The position numbers and the translations under genes are program-made. The notes beneath the pieces were generated by a model, which was given only the letters and a program-made list of their open reading frames with translations, made no database searches and was not told the DNA's origin. From contig OZ004581.1 of assembly GCA_963924555.1 (NCBI GenBank), positions 6,983,338 to 7,047,337 of the forward strand: 64,000 nt of DNA, read 5' to 3'. Positions within the stretch are counted from its first letter, which is position 1. The number at the start of each line of letters is the position of its first letter. Below are positions 7,416 to 62,959 of this stretch, piece after piece. This stretch comes from Crambe crambe. Lineage: Eukaryota; Porifera; Demospongiae; Poecilosclerida; Crambeidae.

Positions 7416-7476
7416 GGGAAATAGTGAGCTTCAGGCATTATTGCTAGCAAACATCAAGTGATCGATTCAAAAGAAT

Positions 7477-18079: not shown

Positions 18080-18149
18080 CCTCGTTAGTACAGTTTGACT
18101 GCTGATCTGATAGCTATAAGTATGTAAGTCTATATGATGAAAATGAGTT

Positions 18150-18159
18150 CTTTTATAGT
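18150..18159 (-). promoter_or_regulatory. TATA box of the minus-strand beta-helix gene
   Basis: On the minus strand CTATAAAAGA lies about 75 bases before the ATG at 18079, matching the spacing at the paralogues. Confidence 0.5.
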
Positions 18160-18382
18160 CATGGCATAGCTACCGTGTATACAAAATTGACTATGCATGT
18201 AGCTATGTATACTTCAAAATTTTCCCAAAGACTCTCTTTACGGCCCAATTGGCAACCCAGATTATTATTTACAATAACCAGCAATTCACAGTTTCCCAGT
18301 AACTAGCTACTGTTATGAAAAAGAAAAAATGATCTTATGAGAAACATATCTAGTCTGATATGTATATAATTATCTCATCCTG

Positions 18383-21933: not shown

Positions 21934-22267
21934 TTGTACTTGATTATAGAATATCTACTAGTGAATGAATGCAAAAAATTTCTTAGAAATAAAATGTGAA
22001 GTAGGCCCCAAATTTAGCACATAGCTATTACAACTGCAGCTTCATTATGAAACCATGCACTGCAGCATCAAAGCAGTAGCTATGGCCCCAAAATCTAGCT
22101 GGAATATGTACTATAACTGCATGCAAGAGAGTGAACTTAGTGAAGTAATCCCTTACCCATCACCAAGTACGAGATACGTACTATTCAACAGTTAGAAGCA
22201 CTATAATAGCAGATATCTGCTAATTAAGGTTTCATTATTGGCACTGAGAGTTTGTTGTGAAGTTTAC

Positions 22268-22468
<201 letters not shown>

Positions 22469-22570
22469 AATAACAGGTTTTAATGAAGTTGTTCTCCAGG
22501 AATTGAATTCTCTGAAGGCATATATCACTGCTACAACTTGTTCTGAATTTTGTCGGTCCGGTGGATAGCT

Positions 22571-22744
22571 ATGCATGGAGATGGCAATATTATTGGAACA
22601 GCACCATTTTGTGGTGGCAAATGTGGAAGGGATTGCAAGACTCACTGCACATATGGCAACAGTGACTGGGAAGAATATGGTGCTGGATGCTGGACTGGAA
22701 ACAAGATTTGCTGCTGTGCTAAATATAAAAAGAGCTCCAACTGA
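22571..22744 (+). CDS. Possible exon of a small Cys-rich secreted peptide
   Basis: An open stretch encodes about 57 residues with eight cysteines and the landmarks GTAPFCGGKC, CTYG and CWTGNKICCC, ending in a stop. GTAPFC...CWTGxK is a pattern I associate with small Cys-rich extracellular domains of invertebrates, but I cannot name the family. No signal peptide lies directly upstream; an acceptor-like GGATAG at about 22562-22567 suggests that it is a terminal exon whose first exon was not found, or that the (CT)n tract fell in its intron. The in-frame ATG at 22571 may be internal. Function unknown. Confidence 0.4.
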   Translation: MHGDGNIIGTAPFCGGKCGRDCKTHCTYGNSDWEEYGAGCWTGNKICCCAKYKKSSN

Positions 22745-23046
22745 ATTTCAGTTCTAGCTATCTGACAGTGTATTTTTTTCTCTAGCTAACTGATTTTAGT
22801 TGAGAGAATTTTTGGAACTATAATATAACTAGCTATACATGTAATTTAGCTACCACAAGAACATTATTATTGTTGCAGTTGTTACAATATGGGTCTATGT
22901 GGGGTGCATTGTGCAATTATGCCTGTTGGCATTTTGGCCCAACCATACTTACATGCCTTAGCGAAAAACCAAGCTATAGCAAGCTAATTTTTAGGGGGGA
23001 GGGGGGACATTATTCACCATTAATAAGCTAGCATTCTAATACATAC

Positions 23047-28093: not shown

Positions 28094-28154
28094 GGGAAGC
28101 AGTGAGCTTCAGGCATTATTGCTAGCAGACATCAAGTGATCGATTCAAAAGAAC

Positions 28155-31100: not shown

Positions 31101-32312
31101 CAAGTCTGCTCTACTGCCTACATAACCCTACTCCTTCCTTTCGCTGCTGCTGGAATAGCTCTAGTTGCTTTTCTGTCCATCTTGAGGCTGACAGTTGCAT
31201 CTGGAATGATAAACAGTGTCATACTCTATGCCAACATAGTAAACAGCTGCAGGCCAATTTTTTTTGTTACTAGTAACAGGAACATATTGACTGTATTTAT
31301 AGCCTGGATGAACCTCGACCTTGGCATCAAGACCTGTTTCTATGATGGAATGGATGCATATGCACAAACATGGCTTCAGTTTGCTTTTCCCATTTATGTC
31401 TGGATCCTGATAATCTTGATTATATTCACTAGTAGATATTCTATAATCATCACTAAATTGATAGGACATAACCCTATAGCTGTCCTGGCTACCCTCCTAC
31501 TCATGTCCTATGCTAAGATCTTAAAAATAGTCATTGAAGTTTACTCCTCTGTGAACTTGGATTATCCTCGAAACAGGACGGTTGCTGTGTGGCTAAAAGA
31601 TGCCAATGTGCCTTACTTGCAGTCTAAGCACCTCCTTCTAACAGTGGTGATTTCACTGGTCCTTATCATCTTCTTCCTCCCTTATACCCTCCTTCTCTTG
31701 GTAGGCTACAAACTCTTTCGCTTCTCAGGAAGGAAATACTTCCACTGGTTGAATATGTTCAAGCCACTGCTGGACTCCTACTATGCCCCATACAACAAAC
31801 ACACTCGCTACTGGACTGGGTTCCTGTTGCTGGTTCGCTGTGCCCTCTACATAGTATTCTCATACAATTCACTTGGAGCCACAAGTAAGAGCCTTCTAGC
31901 CATCATCATCACATTCACTGCAATAGTGGTAATAGCATGGCTTTCTGTAAAAATATACAAAAGATTTTTCGTAAACGTCATTGAAGCTACAGTGTACTTA
32001 AACCTCATCACACTCTCAGCTGTTACCTTAGCTGGTGCTAATTCAGCAGCATTGGTGTATTCTCTGGTCGGAATAGTGTTTGTCACTATGATAGGAATCA
32101 TGGTGTATCACTTCCACATCCTTTACGTTGTCAAGTCAGCAATATGGCTGAAAATAAAAGAAAGGCTATCCTCTACCTTCAAGAAGACCTCGCGTCCTCC
32201 ATTAAATACTGAAACTGTACCATGTGCTCCAAATAATGCTACTTCACATGATCCACGTAAAATTGTTTCTAAAACTGTTATAGAATTGCGTGAACCTTTA
32301 TTGGAAAATTGA
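28155..32312 (+). CDS. Beta-helix repeat, Cys-rich neck, polytopic membrane protein (copy C)
   Basis: A 1385-residue intronless frame nearly identical to the protein at 7477 along its whole length: signal peptide, extracellular Gly-Gly beta-helix (about residues 25-660), Cys-rich neck and eight to ten membrane segments, with the tail ending REPLLEN. The length difference of three residues comes from in-frame codon changes near 28970 and 30925, and no stop has entered either copy. This implies that both are kept under selection or that the duplication is recent. Substitutions are scattered over both ectodomain and neck (for example NNSLM to NYSLM). Promoter and leader were duplicated with the gene, so expression may overlap. 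Confidence 0.85.
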   Translation: MQSITFLLLILLIVPNVLTQQLYYVKPNNLSIGSCPHRPCLTLDQYVKQTATYFTTRSTFIFLAGSHSLQTTVRLKNIFGITLKGADNDSNIIIICKNGVTISLSSVRSLDINGLTFVLHTSKTEQASSALSMLNSREIYISNSTFQGSADLNQNLARAIYCNNSDITITSCRFEGNTGDTGGAIYASGRNASIVFHNSYFCDNKAQMNGGAVYLSGGSVTVMDVKFSNNKALESGGAMHLSNSKLSLSGIENTFQGNQAKKGGGIYVITTRNSLVYSNVTSNTLHLNFQGNEAQELGGAIYAKFSSLTLGETLRHVHSFLNNSGEDGGAIYFLSDRSKLNLIRINGNSSFHDNKAFSFKPVSSFKSAGGALYIKFCIFFVSGTVLLSNNEAYYGGGLYLFGSDTSLAAIITFKNNSAEDGGGIFCVTASVLNSHSAQLNFVSNTARSRGGAYRISNFDPNNNMVISGSYINNQANICGGAVYIETGEKITFLNINVSGNSGSALCLSTGINITFFGTTTITNNTGRFGGGINTRRSFLYFRDHTTFDNNKASIGGGIYSLHGTLVFSGSTLFTHNTVDRDGGAIYALGTNITFKNQDLETCTNYCYKEATFEFNSAQNGAAVYFKNAATLDFHIYINFNTAHNHATQYGGAIYYEDITAPVQCELETNFHQDYSELTDLPYCFIQMSSLTSVRSLWSSILIKMNSYNDSAGINGSFLFGGLLDRCQLQIRNTSDDLQKSIIPYRVMKERIIKIQENGTNGITSLPYQLCFCENDQEYACSRVKHIDTQRGQKFTVSLRALDQLRSVTNTTVTAKISRTASLLLNQNSQMLPNVCKNVTYNLFSTEVHEQMILYPDGPCRDTGIASAVIDATLLPCPDAFVQSGQRCICEARLQEYDVDCIINEDIHITKNAGSKFWMNATYKNNSYEGLILYKTCPVDYCKNGTVNLTLDNPDIQCDLNHGGLLCGGCAANYSLMLGSFQCQVCSTAYITLLLPFAAAGIALVAFLSILRLTVASGMINSVILYANIVNSCRPIFFVTSNRNILTVFIAWMNLDLGIKTCFYDGMDAYAQTWLQFAFPIYVWILIILIIFTSRYSIIITKLIGHNPIAVLATLLLMSYAKILKIVIEVYSSVNLDYPRNRTVAVWLKDANVPYLQSKHLLLTVVISLVLIIFFLPYTLLLLVGYKLFRFSGRKYFHWLNMFKPLLDSYYAPYNKHTRYWTGFLLLVRCALYIVFSYNSLGATSKSLLAIIITFTAIVVIAWLSVKIYKRFFVNVIEATVYLNLITLSAVTLAGANSAALVYSLVGIVFVTMIGIMVYHFHILYVVKSAIWLKIKERLSSTFKKTSRPPLNTETVPCAPNNATSHDPRKIVSKTVIELREPLLEN

Positions 32313-40674: not shown

Positions 40675-43600
40675 GCGTAAGCAATCTACTATCGACTGGG
40701 TACTACTATCGACCATTTCCAGATCTATTATCGACCAACAAAGTATCCGAATATCAGTTGAAGTGTACGGGAGAATTAACGGAATGTTGGACATGTGATA
40801 ATTTGTAGTTGTTACTGCTGTCTTTGTTCTGCTCTTTTTTTGTGCAATCAGTGCTTATTCAAGGTAGTTGTAGTTGCATTTAGCTATATTAAAGATTCAT
40901 TTTGTAGATTTTAGTATTTGATGTTATTTTTTTGTCATTACAGGCGCATGCCACGATACTCCAAAAAGAAGAAGAAAGGCGGCTTTAAGCCAACAAACCT
41001 ACCTAGTTCAAGGCCAGAAGAGTCATCTAGTCTAAGTCGAAGGCCAGCAAAGCGTATGCAATGGACGAGAATGCAGATGGAAGCTGCTGTCAGAGCTGTT
41101 GAATCGGGTGTTTCCGTCTCCATAAATAGGGCAGCTAGAGACCATGGAGTACCTCCATCTACTCTAAAAGATAGGTTATCTGGACGAGTAGTGGATGGTA
41201 ATAAGCCTGGCCGTTCTTCCTATCTCACTGAAGATGAAGAGATGGAGCTAGAATCATATCTTATTAAGTCAAGCCAACTTGGTTATGGGAAGACCAGAAG
41301 CCAAGTTAAATCCATGGTCGAGAAAGTTGCTGTTGATAAAGGGCTCCTGCGTAAGTCTCGAATCAGTGATGGTTGGTTTAAAAAATTTCGTTTACGTCAC
41401 CCCAAGCTCTCTCTTCGCTCTGGAGATGCAACTGGACATGTTCGAATGAGGGCCACAAGTCAAGAAAATTTGACACACTATTTTAATCTTCTGAAAGAAA
41501 TCTTTGAGGAATTTGACTTTAAAGATAGTCCTGAAAGGATATACAATATGGACGAAAGCGGTATACCATTGGATCCAAAGCCACCAAAAGTTCTGGCAGC
41601 AAAAGGACAAAAGAAGGTTCGCTATAGGTGTGCTGGGATCAAGGGACAAATTACTGTCCTTGGCTGCTGCAGTGGGACAGGACAGGCGCTTCCACCATTT
41701 ATTATCTTTGATGCCAAGCAGCTGAACTATGAGTGGACTCGTGGTGAAGTACCTGGCAGTCGGTATGGCTTGAGCGACACAGGATGGACAAACAAAGGCC
41801 TGTTTCATGGATGGCTTGTTGAACATTTTCTCTTGCACGCTGTTCCAGGACGTCCATTGCTACTCTTAGTTGATGGTCATAGTTCTCACTATGATCCTGA
41901 GACCATCAAGTTTGCGAAAGACCACGAAATCATTATTTTCTGCCTCCCGCCTCATACTACACATGAGGCGCAGCCCCTTGATGTAAGTTTCTTTGGGCCT
42001 CTGAAGATCAACTGGGGTCATGTATGTCATGAATATTACCAGGCTGCTCCAGGTCGAATTGTTACCAAATACAACTTTTGTGAGTTGTTCGCAAAGGCCT
42101 GGATGAAGACCTGTACACCTGAAACAATTTGTGCTGGGTTTCGTCGTGCAGGCATCATTCCATTTGATCCTGGGAGTGTCAAGAAACGGTTTCCTCATTG
42201 TGATGATGCTGAGGGTATGGACATACGGTGTGACGAGAACAACTGCACAAATTCAAAGGTGAATTCCACCACCGAACCTGGTGCTGGCAGCAAGGACTCT
42301 GCCAGTGAAAGTCCAAAGGTCACTCCAGTTTTTTCCAATGAAGAAGAAACTTTGTTTTCTCGACGTTTTGAAGAAGGATATGATCTCTATGACGATCACT
42401 ATGAGCAGTGGCTATCTATTATGCATCCTGAAGCACTAACTGTTGCTGATCCACTTTGCTCCATCGAATCTACTCCAACTGGACTAGCAGAGTCTCACCT
42501 TGGTGGCTCTTCCTCTGAAACTCCACCCCAAAGCTCCTCCTCTTCCTCATCACAAACCTCAAGTAGTTCAACTTCTGATGCCAGTTCCAATTCAACTTCT
42601 AGTACCTCAAGTTCATCACCATTGGCTGAAGATACTCCACCTGAATTTGAGTCACCACCTCTATTCTCATCACCTGAAACTAGTGTGCCAGAAACTCCAC
42701 CTATGAATTCAGCCGATTTAGTTAGTCCATCAAATTCACAGGGACGTTCACCATTGGCACCCATTTCCCCAAATGTGTCTGCATTGCATCTTGGGTCTCC
42801 TTTAAGCAAATATCTTATTCCCATTCCAAAAGACTCCAAGAGTACTAGAAAGACAGGGCGTGCCACAGTTCTTACTAGCAAAGAATGTTTGGACATGTTA
42901 GAAGAGAAGAAAAGGAAGAAAGAGAAAGAAGCAGAAGAGAAAGAAGAGCGTATGAGGGTACGCAAGAGACGTAAACTGGAGAGGGAGGAGCTACAGAAGA
43001 AGAAAAAGGAGGAACGTCTTGAGCGCCAGCAGAAGGCGATAGCTAACAAGAAAAGGCAGCCCCAAAGAAGAGGTCGTTCCAAGAGCAAAGGGAATAATTC
43101 TGGTGATCCTGCTAATAATAGTGCCAGTACCTCTAGTTGTGGTAACCCTGGTGACCCTGGTCATGACAATGTTACCACCATTGACCTCCCAGTACAAGGA
43201 ACTGCTTCTGAGCCTTGCCTTGAAACACCCGACAGTGACCAAGAGGAGGCTTATGAATGTGTATTTTGCTATGGGAGCTTCTGTGCTGATGGTGAAGAGT
43301 GGGTGATGTGCGCATGTGATCGTTGGGTGCACGAGAGGTGTATGGAGGATGTTTCTATCGATGAAAATGGTGCAGAGCGATTTTGTCCTTTTTGTTTGAA
43401 CTGAACTATTTTATTATAAAGCTATATTATTAATTAAAATTAATGGCGAGGGTTGGTGCAGGTTATCATCCCAACAGATGTATATAGCTAGGTGGATCTC
43501 ATTCCACCAGATGTAGTGGATATAATGGAACTCGATCATTCCAGCAGATGTAGTGGATATATTAATTCTTTAATTTTGACTATTTTTTTGGCTGTATGTG

Positions 43601-44527: not shown

Positions 44528-44544
44528 AAAGAAGTAGCTGGGCT

Positions 44545-46569
44545 ATGGCAGTACACGGACATGTTTCAGAATTCGATCCAAAAAAGGAAGAATGGAAGTC
44601 CTACGCAGAGAGACTTTCGTACTATTTCATAGCAAACGATATCACGACTGATGCGAAGAAGCAAGCAGTACTCCTAAGTGCGAGTGGATCAGACACATTT
44701 GAACTTATTCAGAACCTGTTGGCACCAGTTGACCCAAAAGACAAAAGTTTTGACGAATTGGTAACTCTACTAGAGAATCATTACAAACCAAAACCTTCAG
44801 AAATAGTCCAGCGTTATCACTTCAACTGCCGAGATCAAAAGGAAGGAGAGAACATATCGACGTACGTCTCCGAACTCAGAAAGCTGTCCCAACACTGCAA
44901 CTATGGCACAAGTCTGAATGATTTACTACGTGACCGCCTTGTTTGTGGGATAAGAAATGGCCCTCTTCAACGGAAGCTGTTAGCAGAGAAGGAACTTACG
45001 TTCAAAACAGCTTTAGAGATGGCCCAGGCTTGGGAAGCTGCAGAAGCAAGTTCCAAGGACTTGCAAAAGCCACAAAATTCATCAGTGCACTCTCTCCGTG
45101 AGAGGGACCCCTCACGCCAACAGAAACATCAACAAAGCCCAGCAGTAACCTGTTATCGATGTGGAGGCCAACACAAGGCTCCTGATTGTCGATTCAAGAA
45201 CACTAAGTGCCACACCTGTCAGAAGGTGGGGCACCTTGCAAGGGTGTGTAGGAGTAAAACACACCCACATCAACAGAAGCGGCGAAAACCGACTTCACAC
45301 AAGACACATCACGTGGGAGAGAGTAAGGAAGCTGCCGAAAGCGAGGAGTACTCACTATTTACAGTCGTTGGGAAAAATAACAAACCAATCACAGCCGTTG
45401 TCACTGTGAATGATATGGAACTGACATTGGAAGTGGATACTGGAGCATCCCGTTCCCTGATAAGCGAGTATACTTACCTTAATCTCAGGCGAGAAGGTCA
45501 AGTTCCGGAGTTACAATCCACTTCGGCCCAACTTCAGACTTACACTGGTGAGCGACTGGAGACCCTGGGTTATATTTCAGCACAGGTCAAGTACCAGGAC
45601 CAGACAGATCAACTGGACTTGATCGTAGTACAAGGAAATGGACCTAGCTTGTTGGGGAGGGATTGGCTAGGAAAATTTCAGTTTGACTGGCGGAGTCTCC
45701 ACAGAATACAGGATAAAGCAACATTGGAAGCAGTCCTTAAGAAGCATGGTGAGGTGTTTCGAGAGGAATTGGGTGAAGTTTCTGGGTTCACCGCCAAGAT
45801 CCACGTCGATGAAGACAAACCTCCACGATATTACCGACCACGATTGGTACCGTTCGCACTTCGAGAGAAGGTGGAGAAGGAACTTACACGATTGGTGGAC
45901 CTGAATGTTATCAAACCTATTCAGTTCTCTGAGTGGGCAACCCCTATTGTCCCTGTGGTTAAGCCAGATGGTTCCATCCGCATCTGTGGTGACTACAAGC
46001 TCACTGTGAATCAGGTGGCCAAGCTGGATACTTACCCCCTCCCTCGTATAGAGGACTTGTTTGCATCACTGTCTGGAGGCCAAACCTTCAGCAAATTGGA
46101 TCTGGCACATGCTTACCTCCAGGTGAAACTGGATGAAGAGTCCCAAAAGTACGTTGCAGTTAACACCCAGAAAGGACTGTATACGTATACCAGACTACCA
46201 TTTGGAGTGGCTTCAGCCCCGTCCATCTTTCAAAGAATGATGGAGAGTATTCTACAAGGTCTCCCTCATGTGTCAATTTACCTTGACGACATCTTAGTTA
46301 CTGGGAAAAGTGAAGAAGATCATCTCCGAAACTTAGATGAGGTCCTTGGCAGATTGAAGGCAGCGGGACTTAGGCTGAAACAAGCAAAGTGTGCCTTCAT
46401 GCTGCCATCGGTGGAGTATCTTGGACACAGAATTAGTGCGGCTGGTCTACAACCAAGTGAGGAGAAAATCCGTGCCATTACAAAGGCTCCTGCACCAACA
46501 GACATCTCACAGCTGAGGTCATTCTTGGGAGTTGTAAATTATTATTGTAAGTTCCTCCCTAATTTGTCA
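44545..46569 (+). pseudogene. Gypsy gag-pol, 5' portion (gag, protease, reverse transcriptase)
   Basis: The frame opens at MAVHGHVSEFDP and is continuous from gag into pol. A gag capsid-like region is followed by two zinc knuckles (CYRCGGQH...C and CHTCQKVGH...C), an aspartic protease (VDTGASRSLI) and a reverse transcriptase with the YLDD box. Without the insertion the frame would continue into 52559-54463; at present it is cut after the reverse transcriptase by the IS3EU-type element, so this copy cannot make a full polyprotein. It resembles the K02A2.6-like Gypsy proteins common in invertebrate genomes. Confidence 0.95.
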
Positions 46570-46677
46570 TATGGGGTGCCGTTTGTGTCAAAACTAGGAT
46601 TCTAACGATCTTTAGTTTTGAGGTCGATGTTTAGACAATGATCGATGTTTATTAGGCCAAGCTGCGATGTTTCAGTA
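46570..46677 (+). repeat. IS3EU-type left TIR (first 108 bp) and subterminal repeat
   Basis: Pairs with 52451-52558 with one mismatch seen (aggtcgatg against aggttgatg). The motif GTTTTGAGGTCGATGTTTAG plus ACAATGATCGATGTTTA at about 46612-46651 recurs at about 46714-46757, and likewise twice at the right end, a likely transposase-binding array. Confidence 0.95.
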
Positions 46678-46912
46678 GTAGGCACGATTTATTGTCGATA
46701 TTTCTGGAAATTAGAATTCTAGTTTTGAGGTCGATGTTTAGACAATGATCGATGTTTACGTTTCAGAGTTTACTGTCGATATTTAGCTCGCTTGAATTTA
46801 TCTTGCACATGCGCAAGTACGTAAGTACCGCGCGCGGCGATACTACTGTGCACGTGACCAACAATACAGCTGCTTCATTCTCGACGGAGCTGAGCTAGTT
46901 AGCTAAAGAGAA

Positions 46913-49900
46913 ATGGCGAAGGAATTAGACCTTGGTGAAATAGGGAAGGCAGTGACAGATGCATTGACTTCAGTATTTTCTAAAATGCAACCCAAGCGAA
47001 CGTGAGTCAGAGTAGAAAGCAATTTAGGAAATTTAAATATTAAATAATAATTATAGCATTAATGTTGTTGGAGCTGATGACGATGATGACTTCATCCAGC
47101 CTAGTAAAAAAGGAAAAAGGTAAAGCTGTAAGCTAGCTGACTAGAACATCATTCTAACACTACATTAGGAGTGATGAAAAGCCACAAACATCAGTATCAC
47201 GTTTGCCATCATCATTTCTTTCAAAGTCAAGAAAATATAAGAAAAAATCGGTTGCAAAATTATTCACTTACGATCGAGATATTATATGTCTACCCTCATC
47301 ATTTTCCAAATCATCTTCGGTGTCCATAAAAATCCCTAGGAAACCGCAAGACCGGGAATATCTTGCGAAAAATCATTTGATTGGGAAAATTCGTCTTAAT
47401 TCTTCAATGAATGAAGATCAAATCTTTCAAGAAATACGTTCAGTTTTTGCAATTCCAATGAAGAAAGATTCATTATTCCAGTTTAAAGTATTACAAACCG
47501 CAGGTGGCTCGAGTAAATGTTTGATCTTGCCTTCCTTATCAGATTCTTATGAATGGACTGCTAGTGCGATATGTGGAAAAAATTCCAAAGTTCCAATTTA
47601 TATAATGGCTGTGGATGACTTATTGGTATGTAGCAACATATTCAATCCAATGACAATAGTCTGTGCATGCAATGTTGTATCCATGATTGCTATCACTTAC
47701 AGGTTACTAATCCTGGAGATACAGATGATGAAGATGATGACCTGCCAACAGTACATGTTAAGTTACACCAGCCACTCTTTCACTTTTACTGATAGTCATG
47801 ATCTTTCTTTACAGGTTACTAATCCTGGAGATACAGATGATGACCTGCCAACAGTACATGTTAAGGTACACCAGCCACTCTTGATTAGGCATACTTACAT
47901 TGAAGTGTTGAATGTTTTTTGCTAACTGTGTTGGAAAGTTTTTTTGTTGTTGTTGTTGAAACTGTTTGGTGACCACACTGGTCAAGGGGGTTGGTTTAAT
48001 GGGAGTTATACATAATGGGCTAGATTTGGGTTACAATGAACCAACAGCTTATAATAATATTATAATAGAAACCACCAATTGTCATTGTAACAAGTAGTGA
48101 TGATGAATCAGAACGGAAGAAGGTCAGTTTATTTATAATGTCTAATAGATTCAATCATATTTTTTGTAAAATAAAGGCAAGAGAGGAGTACATAGTTGAG
48201 TCAAGAAAAGTTATGGAAGAACAGGATGCTGCTTATGCTGAGTCGCTGAGGATAGATCAAGAGAAGGATGCCAAGAAAGCTGACAAAATGGCAAGAGAGA
48301 AGGTCAGGTTTTTTTTTTTGTTTGTTTTTTTTTGTTTTTTTTTGTTTTTTGTTTTTTTTTTGGCCTTTCCCACTTTCCAATGTTGATGAAAAGTTTTCTT
48401 ACCTTTTATTTTAGCTGCAGCTTAAACTTAGAAATAAATGGAGTTCTGAGAGGTTGGAAACCATTGGTGGTAGTAGATTTATTATTCGTTTTGGGGACAG
48501 TGAGAGAGTGGAGTGCAGTATTTCAAGAGATATTACTGCAAAGGTAATGCTGGTCACGTATGCATACGTATCTACTGTTCCCTGAAAGTAGTTTATTATT
48601 ACTATTGCATATCATAGGTTCTTTATGAAATAGCATATGCCTTTGGACGCATCCTGACACCTTTTTCAATTTTCTCTACAATGCCTCGTAAACGGATATG
48701 TGAGAATACTCTCGTCTCTAATTTGGATGCTGTATCGAAAGTTTTGTTTGTGGAAGAAGACAAGGAAGCACCTGATCCCCTCAAGTTTTTGGAAGAATGT
48801 ATAATATTGGAGGCAGAGTCTGAGGTAAGAAATAGTCAGATGCCAACACATAGGACATGGGTCTATAGAAGGCCCTCCATGGGTTTGTAGGACCCATTGT
48901 TCAAAAATCTGGACTTGTAATACTAAATTCTTTATTTGCTTGTTTGTTTTGTTTTCCTTTTATAGTACATGTATGTTGATCATGAAGAATCTGTTAATAA
49001 TTACCAATCTGAGGTGACTGAAATTGTTCATGAAGGTAAGTTCTCCTCCATGTTAGTCTTGTCCCCAGACCCCGCCCTCCAAGGAGGGAAAAGGGGTCTG
49101 GCACTCTTTGAACAATTTTTGGGGCTTGCTGACTTAGCAGTTTCCGATTTCTGTTCCACCAATCAGAAGCACTGCATGTGAAAATTCCTGTGACGGTCAG
49201 ATAGCTAGTCATATGACACTGATGTTATAATGGCGGAGGTAATAAATAAGTATTAAAGTTTTTACTACGTAAAAACTTAAAAAATTAGTAAGTGGAAACT
49301 TAAGTTGGGCGGTCAAGAAGAAAGACGGCTTGACTGGATTCGGCTAGTCTCGCGTAAAAGGAAAGAATTGGGTCTGGCTAGGCGAAACTATTCTTTGGTG
49401 GTGTGCAGAGTCTGGTAACTCAGCCAGACAGACACAGCAAGACTCCATTTCGTGGTGGCCTCCTCTCTGATGATCGTGTTTGGTTGTTATGGCAACTTTC
49501 AAGTCATGTGGTAGTGTCACCTGATCTAAATTCACCCAAGCCCCCAAATTGCTTGAAGAGTACCAGACCCCTTTTCCCTCCTTGGAGGGTGAGGTCTGGG
49601 GACGAGACTACTCCATGTTGGCATTATGATACTCTAAATAATGCCCATTCTAATGTTAATTATTCAAATTGAAGCACACCTCAATGTTAGATGTATCTTG
49701 CTATGTAAGATAATTTGTGAGTATGGTAGCTAACTCACAATGAGATATTATTATTATAATTTTGTGCAGTGGAATGTATGCGTCAGAAATTTATCACTGA
49801 TGAACTCGACACTCATAAAGCAATACCTAGACTTATCAGCCGAAAAAATGTTTACTCAGATGTAATGGCCATTTATTATGATAATGCAGTTGAAATTCTG

Positions 49901-50848
49901 AAAGAATTCCCCTTTAGAGTTCAATTTGAGAGTGAACGTGCTGTGGATACAGGTGGAGTTTCTAGGGACATGTTTTCCTCATTTTGGGAGGAAGCCTACA
50001 GAAAAAATTTTGATGGGGAGAGTTTACTAGTTCCTGCTGTGCATCCCAACAGTGAAATATCCACATTCAGCGTTCTTGGTACTATTCTGGCACATGGGTT
50101 CATAGTGTGTGGCTTCCTCCCAGTTCGCATAGCCTTTCCAGTTCTTGCTGCAATTTTTCATGGTCCTAATGTAGAAGTCCCTGATACTATACTATTGGAA
50201 TCATTTGTGGATTACCTTAGCTGTCATGAAAGTTCACTTATTCATGAAGCAATCAAACTTGGTGAGAAAGGTACTTCATTTTCGTCGCATATGCAGGCTG
50301 ACCTCATTAATACTCTAAGTCGATTGGGATGTACTGAAATACCATCTTTTTCTAATATCAAGAGACTGGTAATTACCATATCTAAGCATCTGCTTGTAAA
50401 TAAGCCACTAGGAACGCTGTATACCCTCAGATCAGGGGTTCCAATTCCGTATCACAATTTCCTTAAGCAGTTTTCTATTCAAAAATTATTTGAGTTGTAT
50501 AAAGCGCTCAATGCTACATCAGCTTCTGTGTTGAGATTGATTGAATCACCTGAAGATATGAATTTTGCTGAGGATCGAGTGTTTAGGTATCTCCTCACTT
50601 TCGTTGGTAGTGCTAAGACAGATCAGCTTCGATTTTTTTTGAGATTTGTTACTGGAAGTTCGGTCCTCATCGATGAGCGTATTACCATTTCCTTCAATAA
50701 CCTTACTGGCCTAGCAAGGCGACCCATCAGCCATACATGTGACTGTGGGTTAGAATTACCCATATCTTATGCCACTTATCCTGAATTCGAATTTGAATTT
50801 TCAAAAATTCTATCCCATGAGATGTCATGGGTAATGGACGCAATTTAA
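46913..50848 (+). CDS. Transposon-encoded UBX-HECT ubiquitin ligase, multi-exon
   Basis: Exons proposed from GT-AG borders that keep one frame: 46913-47001, 47057-47119, 47169-47625, 47815-47865 (alternative or extra 47703-47756), 48069-48122, 48177-48302, 48415-48543, 48618-48824, 48966-49035, 49770-50848. They total 2325 bases, i.e. 774 residues. The N-terminal third has no domain I can name. A charged helix (EEQDAAYAESLRIDQEKDA) like that of FAF/UBXD8 proteins precedes a UBX domain (about 298-370: FIIRFGDSERVECS ... STMPRK ... VLFVEE). The last exon (about 416-774) is a HECT domain: DTGGVSRDMFSSFWEEAY in the N-lobe and RPISHTC in the C-lobe, with the catalytic Cys at about 739, 35 residues from the end. 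UBX domains normally bind p97/VCP and HECT ligases form a thioester with ubiquitin, so the product could ubiquitylate p97-linked targets. A hAT-like MITE sits in the last intron. Confidence 0.75.
47703..47865 (+). repeat. Tandemly duplicated exon in the UBX-HECT gene
   Basis: 47703-47756 and 47815-47865 encode nearly the same acidic peptide (VTNPGDTDD...DLPTVHV). In the first copy the donor AAG|GTACAC has become AAG|TTACAC, leaving only CAT|GTTAAG as a possible donor. The first copy also has an extra DED segment. Confidence 0.8.
49054..49610. mobile_element. hAT-like MITE, 557 bp, in the last UBX-HECT intron
   Basis: Termini TAGTCTTGTCCCCAGACC and, inverted, TAGTCTCGTCCCCAGACC. The 8-bp target duplication CTCCATGT is perfect (49046-49053 and 49611-49618). 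It sits wholly inside the intron 49036-49769, so splicing can remove it. Confidence 0.9.
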
Positions 50849-50955
50849 CACTATAAATATATACTTAGCTACAGAACTATTGACTTAATCACTTATAATA
50901 ATTTCTTGGTATTTACTTGATGTGTACATGTATATTACTGAAAGATTATTAAAAT

Positions 50956-52266
50956 TTATTCAGAAGAACATTCAGTACATCCTTGTGATAAATGTCTACC
51001 AACAATATCTGTCACTGAAGAATAGAAATCATGACTTTGACTTACAGATAACACGAAACTTGATGAGTTTGCCATTAACTCTTCCAACAAAGCGGTACAA
51101 GGTTCAAAAACTATTCTTGGAACAGTAACGGCTTCGTGTGCCTCAGGTGTTTGACTATTACCGATAATTGATGCATGCGGTGTAATGGTAGGAGGGTCAT
51201 TTCTTTGCATATAGCCTTGTATAAACAGTTGATTGGGTGTGAGATTATTCTCAGTTGATATCTTATGATTATTCCAACTACTTGTAAATTCCTCGAGAGC
51301 ATGGTTAATTAGAGGTATATATGTGAAATGTAAACAGAATAAATCAATTTCATTTAGAGGATCAAGCTTTCCTTCTTCCTCTAATGCTCTGAAACTGTCA
51401 TAGAACAAGGAGATCACACAACGGAATACATCCCTCCATAAACGCTCTATCCTTTCATTATGAGTGGATGATCCTGTAATAATCACAGATTCAGACATAT
51501 GCTGTTCTATCATATACTGCCATATTCCAACATTTTCACCACCTAAATCTGATCGCACCTTAGATGGTAGTCCATGATTCGTAGTTGCTTCAATAAATGC
51601 AGATAGAACACTGGATGAATTGTTGTTGTCAGAGCATTTTAAGTAAACAATTGTTCTGGAATAACCATCTATGCCTCCATGGGTTACCAAACGCCAACGT
51701 ATTAGCTTGTGATGGCCATCCACATGCCACACCGCATTGGGACCCTCAGCATGGTAAACTCTCCTTCTCACAGTCACACGCTTTCGAATGGCTGTATTCT
51801 CTGGATCCACACGATGAATCGAAGCACGCAGCCTAGATCTAGGAATGATAATTTTACGTACAAGCAAATGTCCATTCAGCAATCTTTCTCCATCATTGGG
51901 GTGAGTTTGTTTGATGTCTATTAATTGTTGATCTAGATGATGGTCACTAATGGATGTGTAGTAAACATCTTGAGATATTCCATTGTCTTGCAACCTTCTA
52001 TATAATGTCGACCGACTTATATTCAAAATTTCTGCAATTTTGGACCAAGTGAATCCCATGCTTCGTAGGAATTCAATGTCTTCAATATTGACATCAACTG
52101 AAGGTCTACCAATACTGGAACTAGAAATAACTATTAATAAATCCGCACCCGCTAACTAGTTAGTGCAAACCTACCTATTTTCTTCAGTGGAAGAAACATT
52201 AAATCCAATTCTTCTCAAGGAAGATATCAGGGCAGACTCCAGTTCTGTTTGTAGTGATTCGGCCAT
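50956..52266 (-). CDS. IS3EU-type transposase (integrase-like DDE), two exons
   Basis: Exon 1 is 52266-52175 and exon 2 is 52120-50956, joined by a 54-base intron (GTAGGT...TTCTAG), giving 418 residues in one frame. An N-terminal helix-turn-helix (WSKIAEILNISRSTLYRRLQ, about 55-75) is followed by a retroviral-integrase-like core with D165 (NAVWHVDGHHKLIRW), D222 (VRSDLGGENV) and E256 (NERIERLWRD), spacing D33E. The first-Asp motif is typical of an integrase-core family abundant in sponge, cnidarian and fish genomes. All three catalytic residues are kept. It ends 107 bases after the converging UBX-HECT stop. Acts in the nucleus on the TIRs. Confidence 0.85.
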
Positions 52267-52450
52267 CTAGCATTCATTATGCATTATTATGTGATCGTCA
52301 ATCGCGCGCGCGTATCTCGACTGCTCACGTGCGCGCACGCGCGGTACGTAAACTACAGCTAGCTAGCTTGCGTAATAAACATCGATCATTGTCTAAACAT
52401 CGACCTCAAAACTAGAATCCTTAAATATCGACAGTAAACCGTACCTATTA

Positions 52451-52558
52451 TACTGAAACATCGCAGCTTGGCCTAATAAACATCGATCATTGTCTAAACA
52501 TCAACCTCAAAACTAAAGATCGTTAGAATCCTAGTTTTGACACAAACGGCACCCCATA
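52451..52558 (-). repeat. IS3EU-type right TIR
   Basis: Inverted match of 46570-46677 over 108 bases; see the left TIR. The second copy of the subterminal motif lies at about 52375-52417. Confidence 0.95.
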
Positions 52559-54463
52559 TTGTCAAGCTTGTTAGCACCTCTTCATCAGTTATTACAGCAT
52601 GGGGTTAAGTGGAAGTGGGGCAAACCACAACAGAATGCCTTTCAGGAAGCCAAGCAGCAGCTAACTTCCAAGTGTTTACTAGTCCACTTTGACCCTGGGA
52701 AACCACTGTTGTTATCCTGTGATGCATCTCCCTATGGAGTGGGAGCAGTCCTGTCCCACCTGGTAGATGGGGAGGAGAAGCCTATAGCGTTCGCATCAAG
52801 GACGCTGGCCCCTGCTGAAAAGAGGTACTCCCAAATAGATAAGGAGGGATTAGCAATCATTTTTGGAGTCAAGAAATTTAACCAATATCTCTTGGGCCGG
52901 AAGTTTACCATTTACTCAGACCATAAGCCCCTGAAGCACTTGTTTAAGGAAGGCCGAGCAGTACCCCCATTGGCTTCCTCTCGTATACAACGATGGGCTT
53001 TAACACTGGGTGCATACAACTATACCATGATGTATAGGCCAGGGAAAGAACATTCCAATGCCGATGTTCTAAGTCGGTTACCACTCTCTGAATCCCCCAG
53101 TACAGTACCACCGCCAGGTGACGTGATTCTGCTGATTGAGACCTTACGTAATTCACCCGTCACAGACACCCACATCAGAGAATGGACCAACCGGGATCCA
53201 AAAATGTCAAGAGTTAGAGACATGGTAAAAAAGGGATGGTCTCATACGAATGATCCTGAATTACGCCCATATCAACGTCGGAGCCAAGAACTATCAGTAC
53301 AAGATGGCTGTATTTTGATTGGAAGCCGAGTGGTGATACCACCAGCTGGTCGAGAGAGAGTGCTTGAGCTCTTACATGAGGGCCACATTGGTATCTGCCG
53401 AATGAAGAGCCTGGCAAGAGGAATTGTGTGGTGGCCAAACCTGGATGAAGATTTACAAGCGAAAGTGAAAGATTGCTACCAGTGCCAACTTCATCAAAAG
53501 TCCCCACCCCTGGCACCTTTACATCCGTGGGAGTGGCCTGGACGTCCTTGGAGCCGCCTACATATTGACTATGCAGGTCCAGTGCGTGGGAAGATGCTCC
53601 TTGTTGTAATTGATTCACACTCAAAGTGGTTAGAGGTGGTCATTGTACCCTCTGCAAATTCATTCCACACCATCGAGAAACTCCGTTCCATGTTTTCAGT
53701 CCATGGCCTTCCAGAGGTGATTGTCTCGGATAATGGTTCACCTTTCACAAGTTTGGAATTTCACGAGTTCACCCAGAAGAATGGAATCCGCCACGTCAGA
53801 ACCTCACCATACCATCCAGCTTCTAATGGACAGGCCGAAAGGGCTGTGCAGGTTTTGAAGGAAGCCTTAAAGAAGTCTTCTTCAAATTCCATGGAAGTTC
53901 AACTCGCTCGTTTCCTTTTCAAGTATCGCATCACTCCCCATACCACTACTGGAGTTAGTCCTTCAGAGATGCTGATGGGTCGACAGTTGCGATCCCACCT
54001 TGATTTACTCAAACCAGATGTTTCTGCACGAGTTCGACGTCACCAGGGGACACAGAAAGTCCTGCATGACAACCGAGGAACTCGGGAACGTATCTTTCAA
54101 TGTGGAGATAAGGTTTTTGTACGAGGCTCACCAAGCGATCCCAAATGGTTACCTGGAGAAATTTCGGAGGTATGTGGTCCTGTTTCTTACAGAGTCCGGT
54201 TAGCAGATGACAGAATATTCCGACGACATGTTGACCAGATTCGGGCCCGCAGTGCTGAGACCAAGACTGTTGACCAAGGTGACCAAGACAATGAACTGGA
54301 CATTCTGCCAAAACAACCTGGTACCTCAAGTCATCCTACTGTTGACAATCCAGCCAACCCTCCACCTGTTGCACCGGTTTCACCCCCTGCTGGAGAACCG
54401 CTTCGTCGGTCTTCCCGATTAAGGAATCCACCTGATCGCTATGGTGCGTATGTTAACACTTAA
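52559..54463 (+). pseudogene. Gypsy pol, 3' portion (RNase H and integrase)
   Basis: The open part starts at the target duplication and has no own start codon. Domains in order: RNase H (LLSCDASPYGVGAVL ... YSDHKPL), the HHCC zinc-binding domain (HEGHIG ... CYQC) and an rve integrase core (HIDYAGP, VIVSDNGSPF, ASNGQAERA). No chromodomain follows; the tail is Pro-rich. It is the separated second half of the frame begun at 44545. Confidence 0.9.
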
Positions 54464-55962: not shown

Positions 55963-58068
55963 CTAAAACATTTGAATTCTATTGTTATGACCATCACATA
56001 CATACACCACTCCACTGTCATCCACTGCTAGTCCATAAGGACAATTAACCTCTCCTGGTCCCTTTCCTTTACCACCAAATGAGGTCATAAACTGACCCTC
56101 AGAGGTAAACACAGAGATACGATGATTGTAAGTGTCACTGACATACACAACATCATTCTCGTCTACAGCGATGCCATCAGGGGTATTGAGTTCCCCTCTA
56201 CCCTCACCGTGCTTCCCGAAAGTCCTCAAAAACTGACCCTCAGCTGTGAAGACTTGGATGCGATGATTATTCCTATCAGCAACATACACGTTCCCAATGC
56301 TGTCACAGGAAATAGCCACTGGATGATGAAACTGTCCCTTGCCACTGCCTTGCCTACCAAAGGTGCTGGAGAAGGTTAGGTCAGAGCTTAGCACTTGAAT
56401 GCGATCATTGAAAGTGTCCAGCACATACACTTTATTGTTGGAAGCATTTAATGCAATTCCATAGGGATTGTAGAACTGGAGAGGTCCATCACCTCTAGTT
56501 CCCACTGCAGTGAGGAACTGGCCATCTGCAGTGAACTTCTGAATGCGATTATTGTTACTGTCCACCACTAGAATGTTTCCATTGCCATCTACTGCAATTC
56601 CACTAGGGCATTTGAACTGTCCCTGATCAGAACCATGTGTTCCAAATGATTGAAGCTCCTCACCACTGGGACTAAAGAGAGAAACACACTGTCCATCACT
56701 TTCAGTGACCACCACCTCCCCTCTCTGGTTCACTGTCACTCCAAAAGGTCTAACTCCATCGATTGTTTGGATTGGAGCTCCAAGCTTCATAACTGGCAAC
56801 TTCACTGCCACAGAAAAAGGACTTCCTCTGATGTGCTGTTCATCAACTTTGATGTGTAGCTGGTGTCTCCCTTTCGTGGTGGGTTGGTAGCTGATCTCGT
56901 ACAGGTTCAGTTCTTTTCTCTCCACACTGCCTCTCACTGTGGCACCTGTTATCTCAGACACTAGCTCACTCTGCAGTGTTTTGAGAGGCTTCGTACATGG
57001 TCCTCCCTCGTGGTTGACAGCAAACACGATAGCAGTAGATTTTTCCCCCACCACTGCATCTTCCAATCCCTTACCTTTGGCGTGACATCTAGATGGGGAT
57101 GGTTGACCTTGAGTATAGACTTGGCCATAGTTCTGACACATCACAGTGGCATCTGGAGAGGCTGAGAATATCATGTCTGCTTCTGTATCAGGCTTCAATA
57201 CATCTGGTTGAAATGCTGTGGTCAGTTCCTTCACTTGCTTCACCAGGTTTGTCTTCATCTTCAGCACTTCTCCCTGATGACCTTTCTTCCCTCTCTCCTT
57301 CGCAAACTCTAGACAGCTGCTCAGCTGGATCTGGATGCTCTCCAACTGATCTCTCTGGACTGCAAGGCCTTTCAGCTTCTCCTGAGTCATTCGATGTAAC
57401 TCACAAATCAGCTGGGTCTTCCTGACCTCGAGGGTTTCTATGAGTTGTCTGATGGAGTCATGCATGTTTTCTTTGATAGCTTCTCGCTGGTCGGATATCT
57501 CCCCACAATGCTTGTCTAACTCTACTAGTGCTTTGTTGACTGATGCTAGTTTTTCCTCCATTGGTTCTAGTGAACATGTAAGTTCCTTCTCACACTTTTC
57601 AAATGCTTTATGTATTGGTTCATAGTCATGGTCATGATGCTTACCTCCTTTAATAGAACATTTGCAGCATATTAAAACACCACATGTTTCACAAAAGAGC
57701 TTCAGTTCTTCAGCATGCTCTGGACAGTTAGAATAGCCCTTTCTTGGAGGGATGGGGTATGTCGTGTCACCTTCTGTCTTTTCTACTGGGTCTTTGGCTT
57801 CCTTGAAGGTGTCTCGGATTTCCAACATGCGGTTGATGTAGAATGCTGACTGGAGTCCTGCCACTCCATTGGCTGGATTGAGTGTGGCCTGACGACAAAT
57901 AGGACAAGTCAGGGAGAGTTGTCCCTGCTGGTCTCGTACCTCCAGTTTCACAACACATTGCCTGCAGAACACATGGAAGCACTGGAGTTCCTTGGGATCA
58001 ATATAGGTCTCAAGACAAATGGCACAGTTGAGCTGGTCTTCTAGTTTCTTGATGACTTCTTCAGCCAT
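55963..58068 (-). CDS. TRIM-NHL protein (RING, B-box, coiled coil, filamin-like, six NHL repeats)
   Basis: A 701-residue intronless frame. RING finger C15, C18, C30, H32, C35, C38, C55, C58 (C3HC4); B-box at about 115-150 (CPEHAEELKLFCETC...CCKC...HHDHD); coiled coil at about 155-270; a filamin/Ig-like domain at about 310-430 ending HIRGSPFSVAV; six NHL repeats from about 435 to the end (for example GNVYVADRNNHRIQVF), closing a propeller. This is the class VII TRIM plan of TRIM2/3/71 and LIN-41, which combine ubiquitin-ligase activity with RNA or protein binding by NHL; the specific target here is unknown. Only intact member of four copies in the window. Likely cytoplasmic. Confidence 0.9.
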   Translation of the reverse strand: MAEEVIKKLEDQLNCAICLETYIDPKELQCFHVFCRQCVVKLEVRDQQGQLSLTCPICRQATLNPANGVAGLQSAFYINRMLEIRDTFKEAKDPVEKTEGDTTYPIPPRKGYSNCPEHAEELKLFCETCGVLICCKCSIKGGKHHDHDYEPIHKAFEKCEKELTCSLEPMEEKLASVNKALVELDKHCGEISDQREAIKENMHDSIRQLIETLEVRKTQLICELHRMTQEKLKGLAVQRDQLESIQIQLSSCLEFAKERGKKGHQGEVLKMKTNLVKQVKELTTAFQPDVLKPDTEADMIFSASPDATVMCQNYGQVYTQGQPSPSRCHAKGKGLEDAVVGEKSTAIVFAVNHEGGPCTKPLKTLQSELVSEITGATVRGSVERKELNLYEISYQPTTKGRHQLHIKVDEQHIRGSPFSVAVKLPVMKLGAPIQTIDGVRPFGVTVNQRGEVVVTESDGQCVSLFSPSGEELQSFGTHGSDQGQFKCPSGIAVDGNGNILVVDSNNNRIQKFTADGQFLTAVGTRGDGPLQFYNPYGIALNASNNKVYVLDTFNDRIQVLSSDLTFSSTFGRQGSGKGQFHHPVAISCDSIGNVYVADRNNHRIQVFTAEGQFLRTFGKHGEGRGELNTPDGIAVDENDVVYVSDTYNHRISVFTSEGQFMTSFGGKGKGPGEVNCPYGLAVDDSGVVYVCDGHNNRIQMF

Positions 58069-58420
58069 AGGTGTTCCTTATACGTAGCTACTGTGTAGCT
58101 AGCTTCAAACTTTGTTACAAGCTAAGTGGAGCTTGAGGTGTAGTCATGTGAGGTCTGATGAATGTAGTTATGAGCAGATGTGATAATATTATTCATGCTC
58201 AGCTACATAGCTGGTTGGCTACACACCACTACATACATTTAGTTGCAGTGCATAGGTGGGATGATGGACACACTTAGCTAGGACCCAGCCATTTATTAGG
58301 TTGTCTTGAGGTTATTTTACATGCTTAATATACAAAGATACTTTTAGATAATCGGATTGTCCTTTGTTGAGATGTTTGCCTTCTTTCAGAGTCAATGTGT
58401 CCTTAATAGCTACATAATGT

Positions 58421-60134: not shown

Positions 60135-62236
60135 CTAAAAAATTAGAATTCTATTATTATAAGTATCACATACATACACCACTCCACTGTTATCCACTGC
60201 TAGTCCATAAGGATCATCAAACTCTCCTGGTCCCTTTCCCTTTCCACCAAATGAGGTCATAAACTGACCCTCAGAGGTGAACACAGAGATACGACGATTG
60301 TTTCTGTCACTGACATACACAACACCATTCCTGTCGACAGCAACACCATAAGGGATATTGAGTTCTCCCCTACCCTCACCATACTTCCCGAAAGTCCTCA
60401 AAAACCGACCCTCAGCTGTGAAGACTTGGACGCAATGGTTATTACTATCAGCAACATACACATTCCCAGTTCTGTCACAGGATATAGCCACTGGATAATG
60501 AAACTGTCCCTTGGCACTGCCTCCCCTACCAAAGGTGCTGGAGAAGGCGAGGTTAGAGCTCAGCACTTGAACACAATTATTGCAAGCATCCAGCACGTAC
60601 ACCTTATTGTTGGAAGCATTTAATGCGATTCCATAGGGATATTTGAACTGGAGAGGTCCATTACCCACTGCAGTGAGGAACTGGCCATCAGCAGTGAACT
60701 TCTGAATGCGATTATTGTTACTGTCCACCACTAGAATGTTTCCATCACCATCTACTGCTATTCCACGAGGGTATTCGAACTGTCCCTGACCAGAGCCATG
60801 TGTTCCAAATGATCGAAGTTTCTCACCACTGGGACTAAAGATAGAAACACAATGTCCTTCCACTTCAGTGACCATCACCTCCCCTCTCTGGTTCACGGTC
60901 ACTCCAAAAGGTGTAACCACTCCTCCAATTGTTATAATTGGAGCGCCAAGCATTTCTACTGGTGATTTCACTGCCAAAATAAAAGGACTTCCTCTGATGT
61001 GCTGTTCATCGACTTTGATGTGTAGCTGATGCCTCCCATTCAAGATGGGTTGGTAGCTGATCTCGTACATGTTCAGTTCTTTTTTATCCACACTGCCTCT
61101 CACTGTGGCACCTGTTATCTCAGATACTAGTTCACTCTGCAGTGATTTGAGAGGCTCCATACATGGTCCTCCCTTGTGGTTGACAGCGAACACGATAGCA
61201 GTAGATTTCTCCCTCACCGCTGCATCTTCCAACCCCTTACCTTTGACATGACATCTAGATGGGGATGGCGAATCTTGTATATAAACTTATCCATAGTTCT
61301 GACACATCACAGTGGCATCTGGCAAGGCTGAGAATATCATGTCTGCTTCTGTGTCAGGCTTCAATACATCTGGTTGAAATGCTGTGGTCAGTTCCTTCAC
61401 TTGCTTCACCAGGTTTGTCTTCATCTTCAGCACTTCTCCCTGATGACCTGTCTTCACTCTCTCCCACACTAACTCCAGACAGCTGCTCAGCTGGACCTGG
61501 ATAGTCTCCAACTGATCCTTCTGGACTGCAAGGCCTTTCAACTTTCCCCGAGTCATTCGATGTAACTCACCAATCACCTGACTTCAAGGGTTTCTATGAG
61601 TTGTCTGGTGGAATCGTGTATGTTTGCTTCGATAGCTTCTCGCTGGTCAGATATCTCCCCACAATGCTTGTCTAACTCTACTAGTGCTTTGTTGACTGAT
61701 GCTAGTTTTCCCTCCATTGGCTCTAATGAACGTGCAAGTTCTTTCTCACACTTTTCAAATGCTTTACGTATTGGTTCATAGTCATGGTTGTGATGCTTTC
61801 CTCCCCTAATAGCACATTCACAGCATATTAAAACACCACATGTCTCACAGAAGAGCTTCAGTTCTTCTTCAGCATGCTCTGGACAGTTAGAAGAGCTCTT
61901 TCTTGAAGGACTGGGGTGTGTCGTGCCACCCTCTGCTTTTTCTAGACTGACTACTGGGTCTTTGGCTTCCTTGAAGGTATCTCGGATTTCCAACATGCGG
62001 TTGATGTGGAATGCTGACTGGAGACCTGCGACTCCATTGGCTGGAATGGGCGTGGCCTGACGACAGGTGGGGCAAGTCAGGGTGAGTTTTCCCTGCTGGT
62101 CTCGGACCACCAGTTTCACAAGACATTGACTGCAGTACACATGGAAGCACTGAAGTTGCTTGGGGTCAGTATAGGTCTCAAGACAAATGGCACAGTTGAA
62201 CTGGTCTTCTAGTTTCTTGATGACTTCCTTAGCCAT
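60135..62236 (-). pseudogene. TRIM-NHL pseudogene (10-bp deletion and a nonsense codon)
   Basis: Collinear with the intact gene. Piece 1 (62236-61574) has RING, B-box and part of the coiled coil. A deletion of ten bases after CTTGAAGTCAGG, against the intact copy, brings TGA into frame. Piece 2 (to 61287) ends where CAA of the intact gene reads TAA, with no length change. Piece 3 (61232-60135) holds the filamin-like domain and all NHL repeats and is otherwise open. Two independent lesions make it a pseudogene unless re-initiation yields NHL-only protein. Confidence 0.85.
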
Positions 62237-62959
62237 GGCTATTATTTCAGTACCTTAACTTCAAACTTTGGTGTTGTATGTCAGAGTGAATGCCCAAATT
62301 TAGATGAGGTGTAGTCATGTGAGGTCTATTGAATGTGGTGATTGATAATATCCATGGTTACACAATGCTACATCCAATAGCTATAACAATCTTTGTTAGC
62401 TGTAACTTTATGGTATTCTCAGATAACTGTGCTCTGTAAAAATATTCTCAACCCATGATATTCGATCTCTCACAGATAGCTACCAGTGCTCAGTAAGCAG
62501 CTAGGTTATAGCTAATGGTATCTAGACTCGGTTACATTGTAGACATTATCATACCATGGAAATGCAGAGCATTGTGGCAAGCAAAGCTTTAGCCGATGAA
62601 GTCACCTTAATAATATTATTGCATGTTTCTTTCTCTAATAGTAGAACCTTCGCTCCTAAGGATAAACCTCTCAACAGAGGACTTGTGGTGAGCTCAAAAT
62701 AGGGTGTAGATATACCATCACAGAAGATCATGCAATAAAAGCTTGGCATAAAGGATACAGCACATCATGGCTGGAGGGTCTGATTGCATTGTATGATTTG
62801 TACCACAGCACTAATTTTATTTGATAATAACATAAACAGTTCTATAACTAGCAAAACACTATCATAATACAACAGCATATATAGACACACAGACACAATT
62901 AGTTTCACACTGCATGCACACATGCAAGGTAAGCAAAGCACGTGCAGTTAGTTCACTAT
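62237..62959. other. Spacer between host gene 3' end and TRIM pseudogene
   Basis: Contains the GAGCTCAAAATAGGGTGTAG block shared with 44060-44190. No gene seen. Confidence 0.45.

Follow-up and report, generated by a model that had tools for sequence, protein, structure and literature searches.

What would a cut-and-paste transposon do with a gene that reads as a ubiquitin ligase joined to a docking module for p97? The question is raised by a 64,000-nucleotide stretch of the genome of the sponge Crambe crambe (contig OZ004581.1, positions 6,983,338 to 7,047,337; hereafter the window), in which an IS3EU-type element encloses two genes. Gene 1 is a predicted cut-and-paste transposase. Gene 2, judged by its domains, is an accessory fusion of an N-terminal domain (N-domain), an acidic linker, a FAF1-like coil, a UBX domain and a HECT domain. 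Expression, ligase activity, p97 binding and target of gene 2 are all inferred. We tentatively propose, with somewhat less than even confidence, that gene 2 tags a protein bound to DNA, the transposase-DNA complex being the likeliest target, and that p97 extracts it.

The element is 5,989 bp long. Its ends were located by a search for terminal inverted repeats (TIRs) and fixed with the TA..TA termini and a target site duplication (TSD). The repeat search paired 46569-46677 with 52451-52559 (109 nt, 99%), and the TA..TA ends reduce this match to TIRs of 108 bp, the type and repeat length that an earlier note on this DNA had given. The features that bound the element are as follows.

46570..52558, no strand: IS3EU element, with TIRs and TATGG..CCATA ends
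46570..46677, plus strand: left TIR, 108 bp (repeat search)
52451..52558, minus strand: right TIR, 108 bp, 99% complementary to the left TIR (repeat search)
46564..46569, no strand: left TSD copy, TTGTCA, 6 bp (by eye)
52559..52564, no strand: right TSD copy, TTGTCA, 6 bp (by eye)
46720..46758, plus strand: 39-bp repeat of TIR segment 46613-46651 (repeat search)
52376..52414, minus strand: right-end counterpart of the 39-bp repeat (repeat search)
44530-46605 and 52541-54463: halves of a Ty3/gypsy retroelement split by the IS3EU insertion

The termini of the window element, and of two copies of another family in the same genome (C8 and C9), read TATGG..CCATA, which is the TAYGG..CCRTA form of IS3EU (PMC12730594; this and the other papers cited here are drawn on from excerpts). 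All three have the 6-bp TSD of this superfamily, TTGTCA in the window and CTCTGG and ATCAAT in the C8 and C9 copies (by eye). The 39-bp subterminal repeat is possibly a second transposase site. The element interrupts the pol gene of the retroelement, with RVT_1 on the left and RNase H and integrase on the right. The retroelement frame stays open once 60 bases from each flank are joined, which indicates that the IS3EU insertion was precise and is younger than the retroelement.

Gene 1 lies on the minus strand, tail-to-tail with gene 2, and encodes 416 or 418 amino acids with a single intron.

52175..52266, minus strand: transposase exon 1 (gene model)
50956..52120, minus strand: transposase exon 2, with helix-turn-helix and rva_4/DDE core (acceptor possibly 6 bp further in, at 52114)

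Pfam recognised the rva_4 integrase core (E 2.3e-78) and HTH_7 (E 5.7e-6) in the product, and the catalytic triad, chosen by eye, is spaced D-56-D-33-E. No zinc-finger family that could represent an HHCC finger upstream of the core was among the Pfam results, as fits IS3EU. The window element thus shares with IS3EU/GingerRoot, a Repbase superfamily, its TAYGG..CCRTA ends, the 6-bp TSD and an integrase-like DDE transposase without HHCC finger.

Gene 2 lies on the plus strand. Its splice model, which is based on sequence comparison and not on RNA, has 11 exons with GT-AG borders throughout and a single open frame.

46913..47001, plus strand: exon 1, start codon (GT-AG; N-terminus of P0008 similar by eye)
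47057..47119, plus strand: exon 2 (GT-AG)
47169..47625, plus strand: exon 3, conserved N-domain (GT-AG, matches elsewhere)
47703..47756, plus strand: exon 4, acidic linker, tandem duplicate of exon 5 (GT-AG, repeat search)
47815..47865 (or to 47859), plus strand: exon 5 (GT-AG, repeat search)
48069..48122, plus strand: exon 6, linker (GT-AG)
48177..48302, plus strand: exon 7, FAF1-like coil (GT-AG, profile match)
48415..48543, plus strand: exon 8, first half of UBX (GT-AG, profile comparison)
48618..48824, plus strand: exon 9, second half of UBX including the P-R loop (GT-AG, profile comparison)
48966..49035, plus strand: exon 10, linker (GT-AG)
49770..50848, plus strand: exon 11, HECT domain; its catalytic Cys lies 35 residues before the C-terminus (GT-AG, Pfam)

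The product has 790 or 792 amino acids, depending on which of two donors (47859 or 47865) ends exon 5. Exons 4 and 5 are tandem duplicates that each splice in frame. The earlier note had joined ten GT-AG exons into 774 codons; the single frame and the GT-AG borders stand, the exon count does not, and its 774 codons correspond to the 792-residue version minus exon 4. Across the exon 8/9 junction, P0001 and P0002 (a relative of gene 2 from the sponge Ephydatia muelleri) align without a gap. Within intron 10, an 82-nt inverted repeat pair (49054-49135 and 49529-49610) resembles a small nested miniature inverted-repeat transposable element; the stretch is also present in a decayed copy, C15.

Exon 11 is a predicted HECT E3 ligase domain with its catalytic cysteine. 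PF00632 passes narrowly (E 1.4e-5; 25.4 bits, cut-off 23.9), and the cysteine of the HTC motif stands at position 755 in the 790-residue product, 35 residues before the C-terminus, which bears out the earlier reading of the last exon. The catalytic Cys motif is present in 21 of 25 loci of the same genome, near-copies included; one has Ser, and in three the motif was not found. HECT was the sole Pfam finding in gene 2, which thus showed neither the UBA nor the UAS domain of FAF1-type proteins. No Pfam family matched the N-domain. Profile comparison of the N-domain with C12/P0002 was weak (score 25.5, shuffled maximum 20.9, probability 19%), and with the N-region of the C8 copy it scored 17.8, within the shuffle range. 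By eye, the N-terminal regions of locus L066 (C12:338500-345500) and P0002 have in common a stretch WS.KW..FV.V that was not seen in the window gene.

The UBX domain had been placed in exons 7-8 of the earlier note's count, exons 8-9 of the 11 here. Pfam does not recognise it in the window copy, and its identification comes through relatives and profiles. Scanned against the whole genome, the Pfam UBX model matched 16 times at E up to 10. In three cases (C20:4179803, C10:3560381 and C12:343348) the match precedes an IS3EU HECT exon by ~0.85 kb on the same strand, compared to a chance expectation of ~0.006 within 2 kb of 27 paired HECTs. The C20 match exceeds the curated cut-off (21.2 when taken together with its neighbours); those on C10 (19.4 bits) and C12 (18.0 bits) are under it. 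A fourth match, nearly identical in sequence, is on C9, where the HECT searches of the genome found no HECT nearby. When a profile of seven transposon UBX sequences, their pieces picked by hand, was compared with four host UBX domains from the same genome, the two aligned at 96.7% with a score of 51.5 (best of 200 column shuffles, 21.9). A profile of the window, P0001 and P0002 only scored 22.8 against host UBX (shuffled 17.0, probability 26%). The coil preceding UBX matches FAF1 chain 11ta_M in the PDB (E 8.9e-4, three-sequence profile), and in 15 of the 25 loci with the window HECT type a coil or UBX could be made out upstream (motif scan and eye, near-copies included). Since UBX matches stand upstream of three IS3EU HECTs, the profile aligns to host UBX and the coil matches FAF1, the presence of a UBX domain in the window gene, too diverged for Pfam here, is supported.

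Pairing of the two genes recurs across the genome (143.1 Mb, 119 contigs). The window HECT as query gave at least 66 matches in at least 47 clusters, and the transposase at least 113 matches in at least 86 clusters. Among the 47 HECT clusters listed, 31 have a transposase within 8 kb, 27 of them tail-to-tail, where 0.45 pairs in any orientation are expected by chance; the other 16 have none within that distance. The HECT set was extended with matches to the G2E3-like query P0008 (53 matches) and to Pfam HECT (132 matches, 75 clusters). A HECT match lies within 10 kb of 57 of the 86 transposase clusters listed (mean 2.7 and maximum 10 in 1,000 shuffles), so that other copies do carry the gene, contrary to the outcome that would have refuted the earlier note; the remaining 29 are weighed below. 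The nearest HECT match of these 57 is tail-to-tail in 46, head-to-head in 6 and on the same strand in 5. With N-domain matches also counted, 64 of the 86 listed clusters are paired (shuffles: mean 2.8, maximum 10). Of the Pfam HECT clusters, 35 lie near transposases, none of them with a score above 40.7 bits, and the 40 more than 10 kb away range from 21.8 to 204.2 bits. Many of the far clusters look like host genes, and some low-scoring ones may be orphaned transposon copies.

In two further copies the association is closed at both ends. The C8 and C9 copies share 99.2% identity over 6.4 kb and have both genes enclosed by TIRs and TSDs; their TIRs align over 303 columns at 93-94%, and their TSDs differ. 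No TIRs were found in a 7-kb stretch that holds the C12 copy. A separate subfamily (copies on C9, C11, C17 and C21, for example C9:1575467-1577430) has the N-domain gene and transposase head-to-head instead of tail-to-tail. Chance open reading frames (ORFs) were rejected as an explanation, and so was an assembly artefact, as this pairing of HECT and transposase is repeated in the decayed C15 copy.

IS3EU elements in this genome carry at least two types of second gene. Type A is the window HECT lineage, with coil and UBX where these are recognised. Type B joins the N-domain to a G2E3-like HECT (P0008, P0009) and has no UBX seen. By eye, the N-terminus of P0008 looks like window exon 1. Window exon 3 has 18 matches elsewhere in the genome: six are in clusters where the HECT part of P0008 matches too, and the others adjoin transposases with no HECT match or sit far from any transposase. 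In a transposase-core tree of 29 rows, hand-picked from 49 loci with repeats and near-copies left out, the window groups with six elements that have type-B HECTs (99/97), apart from the other twelve type-A rows. Constraining the window transposase to the main type-A group was rejected (p-AU 0.028; the group was named after seeing the tree). In a HECT tree of 19 rows, the window falls inside type A, beside P0006 and the C6 copy (97/97; bootstrap unsettled, long branches flagged). Because the two trees place it in different lineages, the window element appears chimeric, with an A-type coil-UBX-HECT segment inside a B-type element. The decayed C15 copy aligns with the window from 48275 through HECT (92%) and transposase (89%), and in the C3 copy the alignment is limited to HECT and 209 bp of the transposase; as these decayed copies share the mix, it is not an assembly fault of the window locus. 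The chimera suggests that accessory modules pass between transposon lineages, and lineage-hopping of TET/JBP accessory genes has been reported in fungi (PMC12730594).

Ubiquitin-pathway genes in transposons are not new in themselves. Ginger1 elements with OTU or Ulp1 domains have been described (PMC2836005) and are, like the window element, integrase-type transposons tied to the ubiquitin/SUMO pathway. In Ginger1 the protease domain is on the transposase (PMC2836005), whereas the window element has a separate ligase gene with a predicted p97-docking module. Kapitonov reported fungal elements that encode 5-6 proteins and descend from IS3EU and En/Spm ancestors, as well as transposons with host-acquired proteins (PMC3520738). 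The accessory genes reported for fungal IS3EU are TET/JBP and alpha-kinase (PMC12730594), compared to HECT and UBX here. The literature searched, which did not cover Repbase Reports, where an entry may exist, held no description of HECT or UBX in IS3EU, in line with the earlier note, which was aware of no such pairing in IS3EU. The FAF1/FAF2 proteins share with the window gene the order of coil then UBX, a pair sufficient to stimulate p97-UFD1-NPL4 (PMC9377798); the window gene differs in having a HECT ligase behind UBX and no detected UBA or UAS. P0009, a relative of P0008 from the sponge Amphimedon queenslandica, has been annotated like any other gene, under the name 'G2/M phase-specific E3 ubiquitin-protein ligase-like'. 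It combines an N-domain of the same family with HECT, but no coil or UBX was seen and its HECT is of another lineage. This gene is perhaps transposon-derived.

How would such a protein act? The FAF1 coil with UBX is enough to promote the disassembly of ubiquitylated CMG helicase by p97-UFD1-NPL4, and UBX alone is not (PMC9377798), and UBXN-3/FAF1 is involved in chromatin-associated degradation (PMC4743000). Both FAF1 modules joined to a ligase in a DDE transposon suggest tagging and extraction of a DNA-bound protein, and the arrangement suggests the element's own transposase complex as the simplest target. The N-domain, or the transposase itself, would bring the gene 2 product to the transposon protein-DNA complex. 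HECT would then build ubiquitin on a DNA-bound protein, most likely transposase remaining on the ends after excision or strand transfer, and the coil and UBX would recruit p97-UFD1-NPL4. Removal of the tagged protein would allow host repair to complete and would prevent a build-up of transposase. In phage Mu, MuA persists on the product until it is removed by ClpX (PMC5357137), and the gene 2 system would be an element-encoded counterpart of ClpX acting on MuA. The logic proposed to be common to both is that an AAA+ unfoldase strips a DDE transposase from product DNA. In Mu the unfoldase, ClpX, belongs to the host and works without ubiquitin, whereas here adaptor and ligase would be encoded by the element. 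The wider claim is possible but doubtful: that IS3EU of this lineage have, as a standing second gene, a tag-and-extract machine (HECT with FAF1-type p97 docking) that takes apart the complex of their own transposase with DNA, with whole ligase modules swapped between IS3EU lineages by recombination.

The extraction proposal is favoured by the domain content with the catalytic Cys, the recurrent pairing with transposases, the copies bounded by TIRs and TSDs, the P-R retained in most of the transposon UBX loops and the low HECT dN/dS given below. Several results weigh against it. PF00789 did not match the window copy, either as whole protein or as excised region. In the F-P-R loop that contacts p97, the window has M-P-R, with Phe replaced by Met; P-R is kept in five of the seven transposon UBX sequences and missing in two, and the full F-P-R occurs in C12 only. 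In 10 of the 25 loci, coil or UBX was not seen within the 1.5 kb searched. Type-B elements have a predicted HECT gene with no detected UBX, by which p97 docking would not be needed by all. For 29 of the 86 transposase clusters listed, no HECT match lies within 10 kb. Structure models were of low confidence, with a mean predicted local distance difference test score (pLDDT) of 47.9 for AlphaFold on P0001 (nine-row alignment) and 49.4 on the N-domain (three-row alignment). With the P0001 model, Foldseek gave 51 matches, all at E > 0.001, the top 16 being HECT proteins, and this was not used as proof. The order strand-strand-helix-strand in the UBX region fits UBX, with low confidence. Purifying selection had been proposed as a check in the earlier note. 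Of 15 HECT loci tried, 12 free of stops were compared for the ratio of nonsynonymous to synonymous divergence (dN/dS). Among 11 pairs with the window, seven were estimable at 0.24-0.31 (three independent; five are near-copies) and four were saturated; dS approached or passed saturation in every pair with the window. Recent copies have diverged too little for a test of selection. Between the window and the decayed C15 copy, substitutions amount to 2.2% in HECT exons and 3.2% in introns, which is not significant (Fisher p 0.16).

The main rival to transposase extraction is that the UBX-HECT protein marks a host repressor, of chromatin or the PIWI-interacting RNA pathway, for p97 extraction or degradation, so that the element stays expressed. 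We consider this somewhat unlikely. Fungal TET+ IS3EU offer a precedent, with a TET/JBP gene thought to aid escape from methylation silencing and an alpha-kinase gene opposite the transposase (PMC12730594), and the swap of one HECT type for another in the chimera would fit an arms race. The tail-to-tail pairing with the transposase fits a transposase-linked job equally well.

Less probable still is dosage control, in which the ligase degrades free transposase to limit copy number and p97 is needed only as the substrate sits in complexes. The window family is indeed low-copy, with one intact copy and decayed relatives found, but low copy number has many causes, and another family multiplied recently with gene 2 kept (six loci share an almost identical HECT, which in one of them has a stop). 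That gene 2 is a captured fragment of a host gene, useless to the element, we regard as quite improbable. Transposons commonly capture host genes and a role for gene 2 is inferred only, but HECT matches of at least two types recur near those 57 listed transposase clusters, the Cys motif is retained in most loci, and dN/dS is well below 1, albeit over saturated distances. Scarcely credible is the reading that gene 2 is a host HECT gene lying by chance beside transposases: the genome has host HECT genes, as the 40 far Pfam clusters indicate, but the near-transposase clusters have only low scores, and the gene is bounded by TIRs and TSDs in the window and in both the C8 and C9 copies, the latter two of which refute this reading for the gene type.

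Elsewhere in the window, an 829-residue ORF (40915-43404, plus strand) with DDE_1 and a Psq helix-turn-helix is a pogo-like transposase, whose C-terminus is Cys-rich and PHD-like by eye. Three ORFs of ~1,400 residues are alike by eye (7462-11643 and 28140-32312, plus strand; 13868-18169, minus strand), the first two being very similar; the first has Chlamydia-type PMP repeats. ORFs of a class-C receptor, GABA-B-like by eye and with 7tm_3 in the second, occupy 188-2298 (plus strand). On the minus strand lie a TRIM-NHL type protein with RING, B-box, filamin and NHL (55963-58077), another similar to it by eye (60135-62254), and an ORF at 22235-22747, half of which is an Arg-Glu repeat from a simple repeat.

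If the wider claim is right, the window element would be, to our knowledge, the first eukaryotic cut-and-paste element with its own unfoldase adaptor. As far as we know, the way in which product DNA is freed of eukaryotic DDE transposases is mostly open, and an element that supplies both ligase and p97 adaptor would allow a direct test. Among animal HECT genes with the same G2/M phase-specific annotation as P0009, some may belong to transposons, with consequences for gene-family counts.

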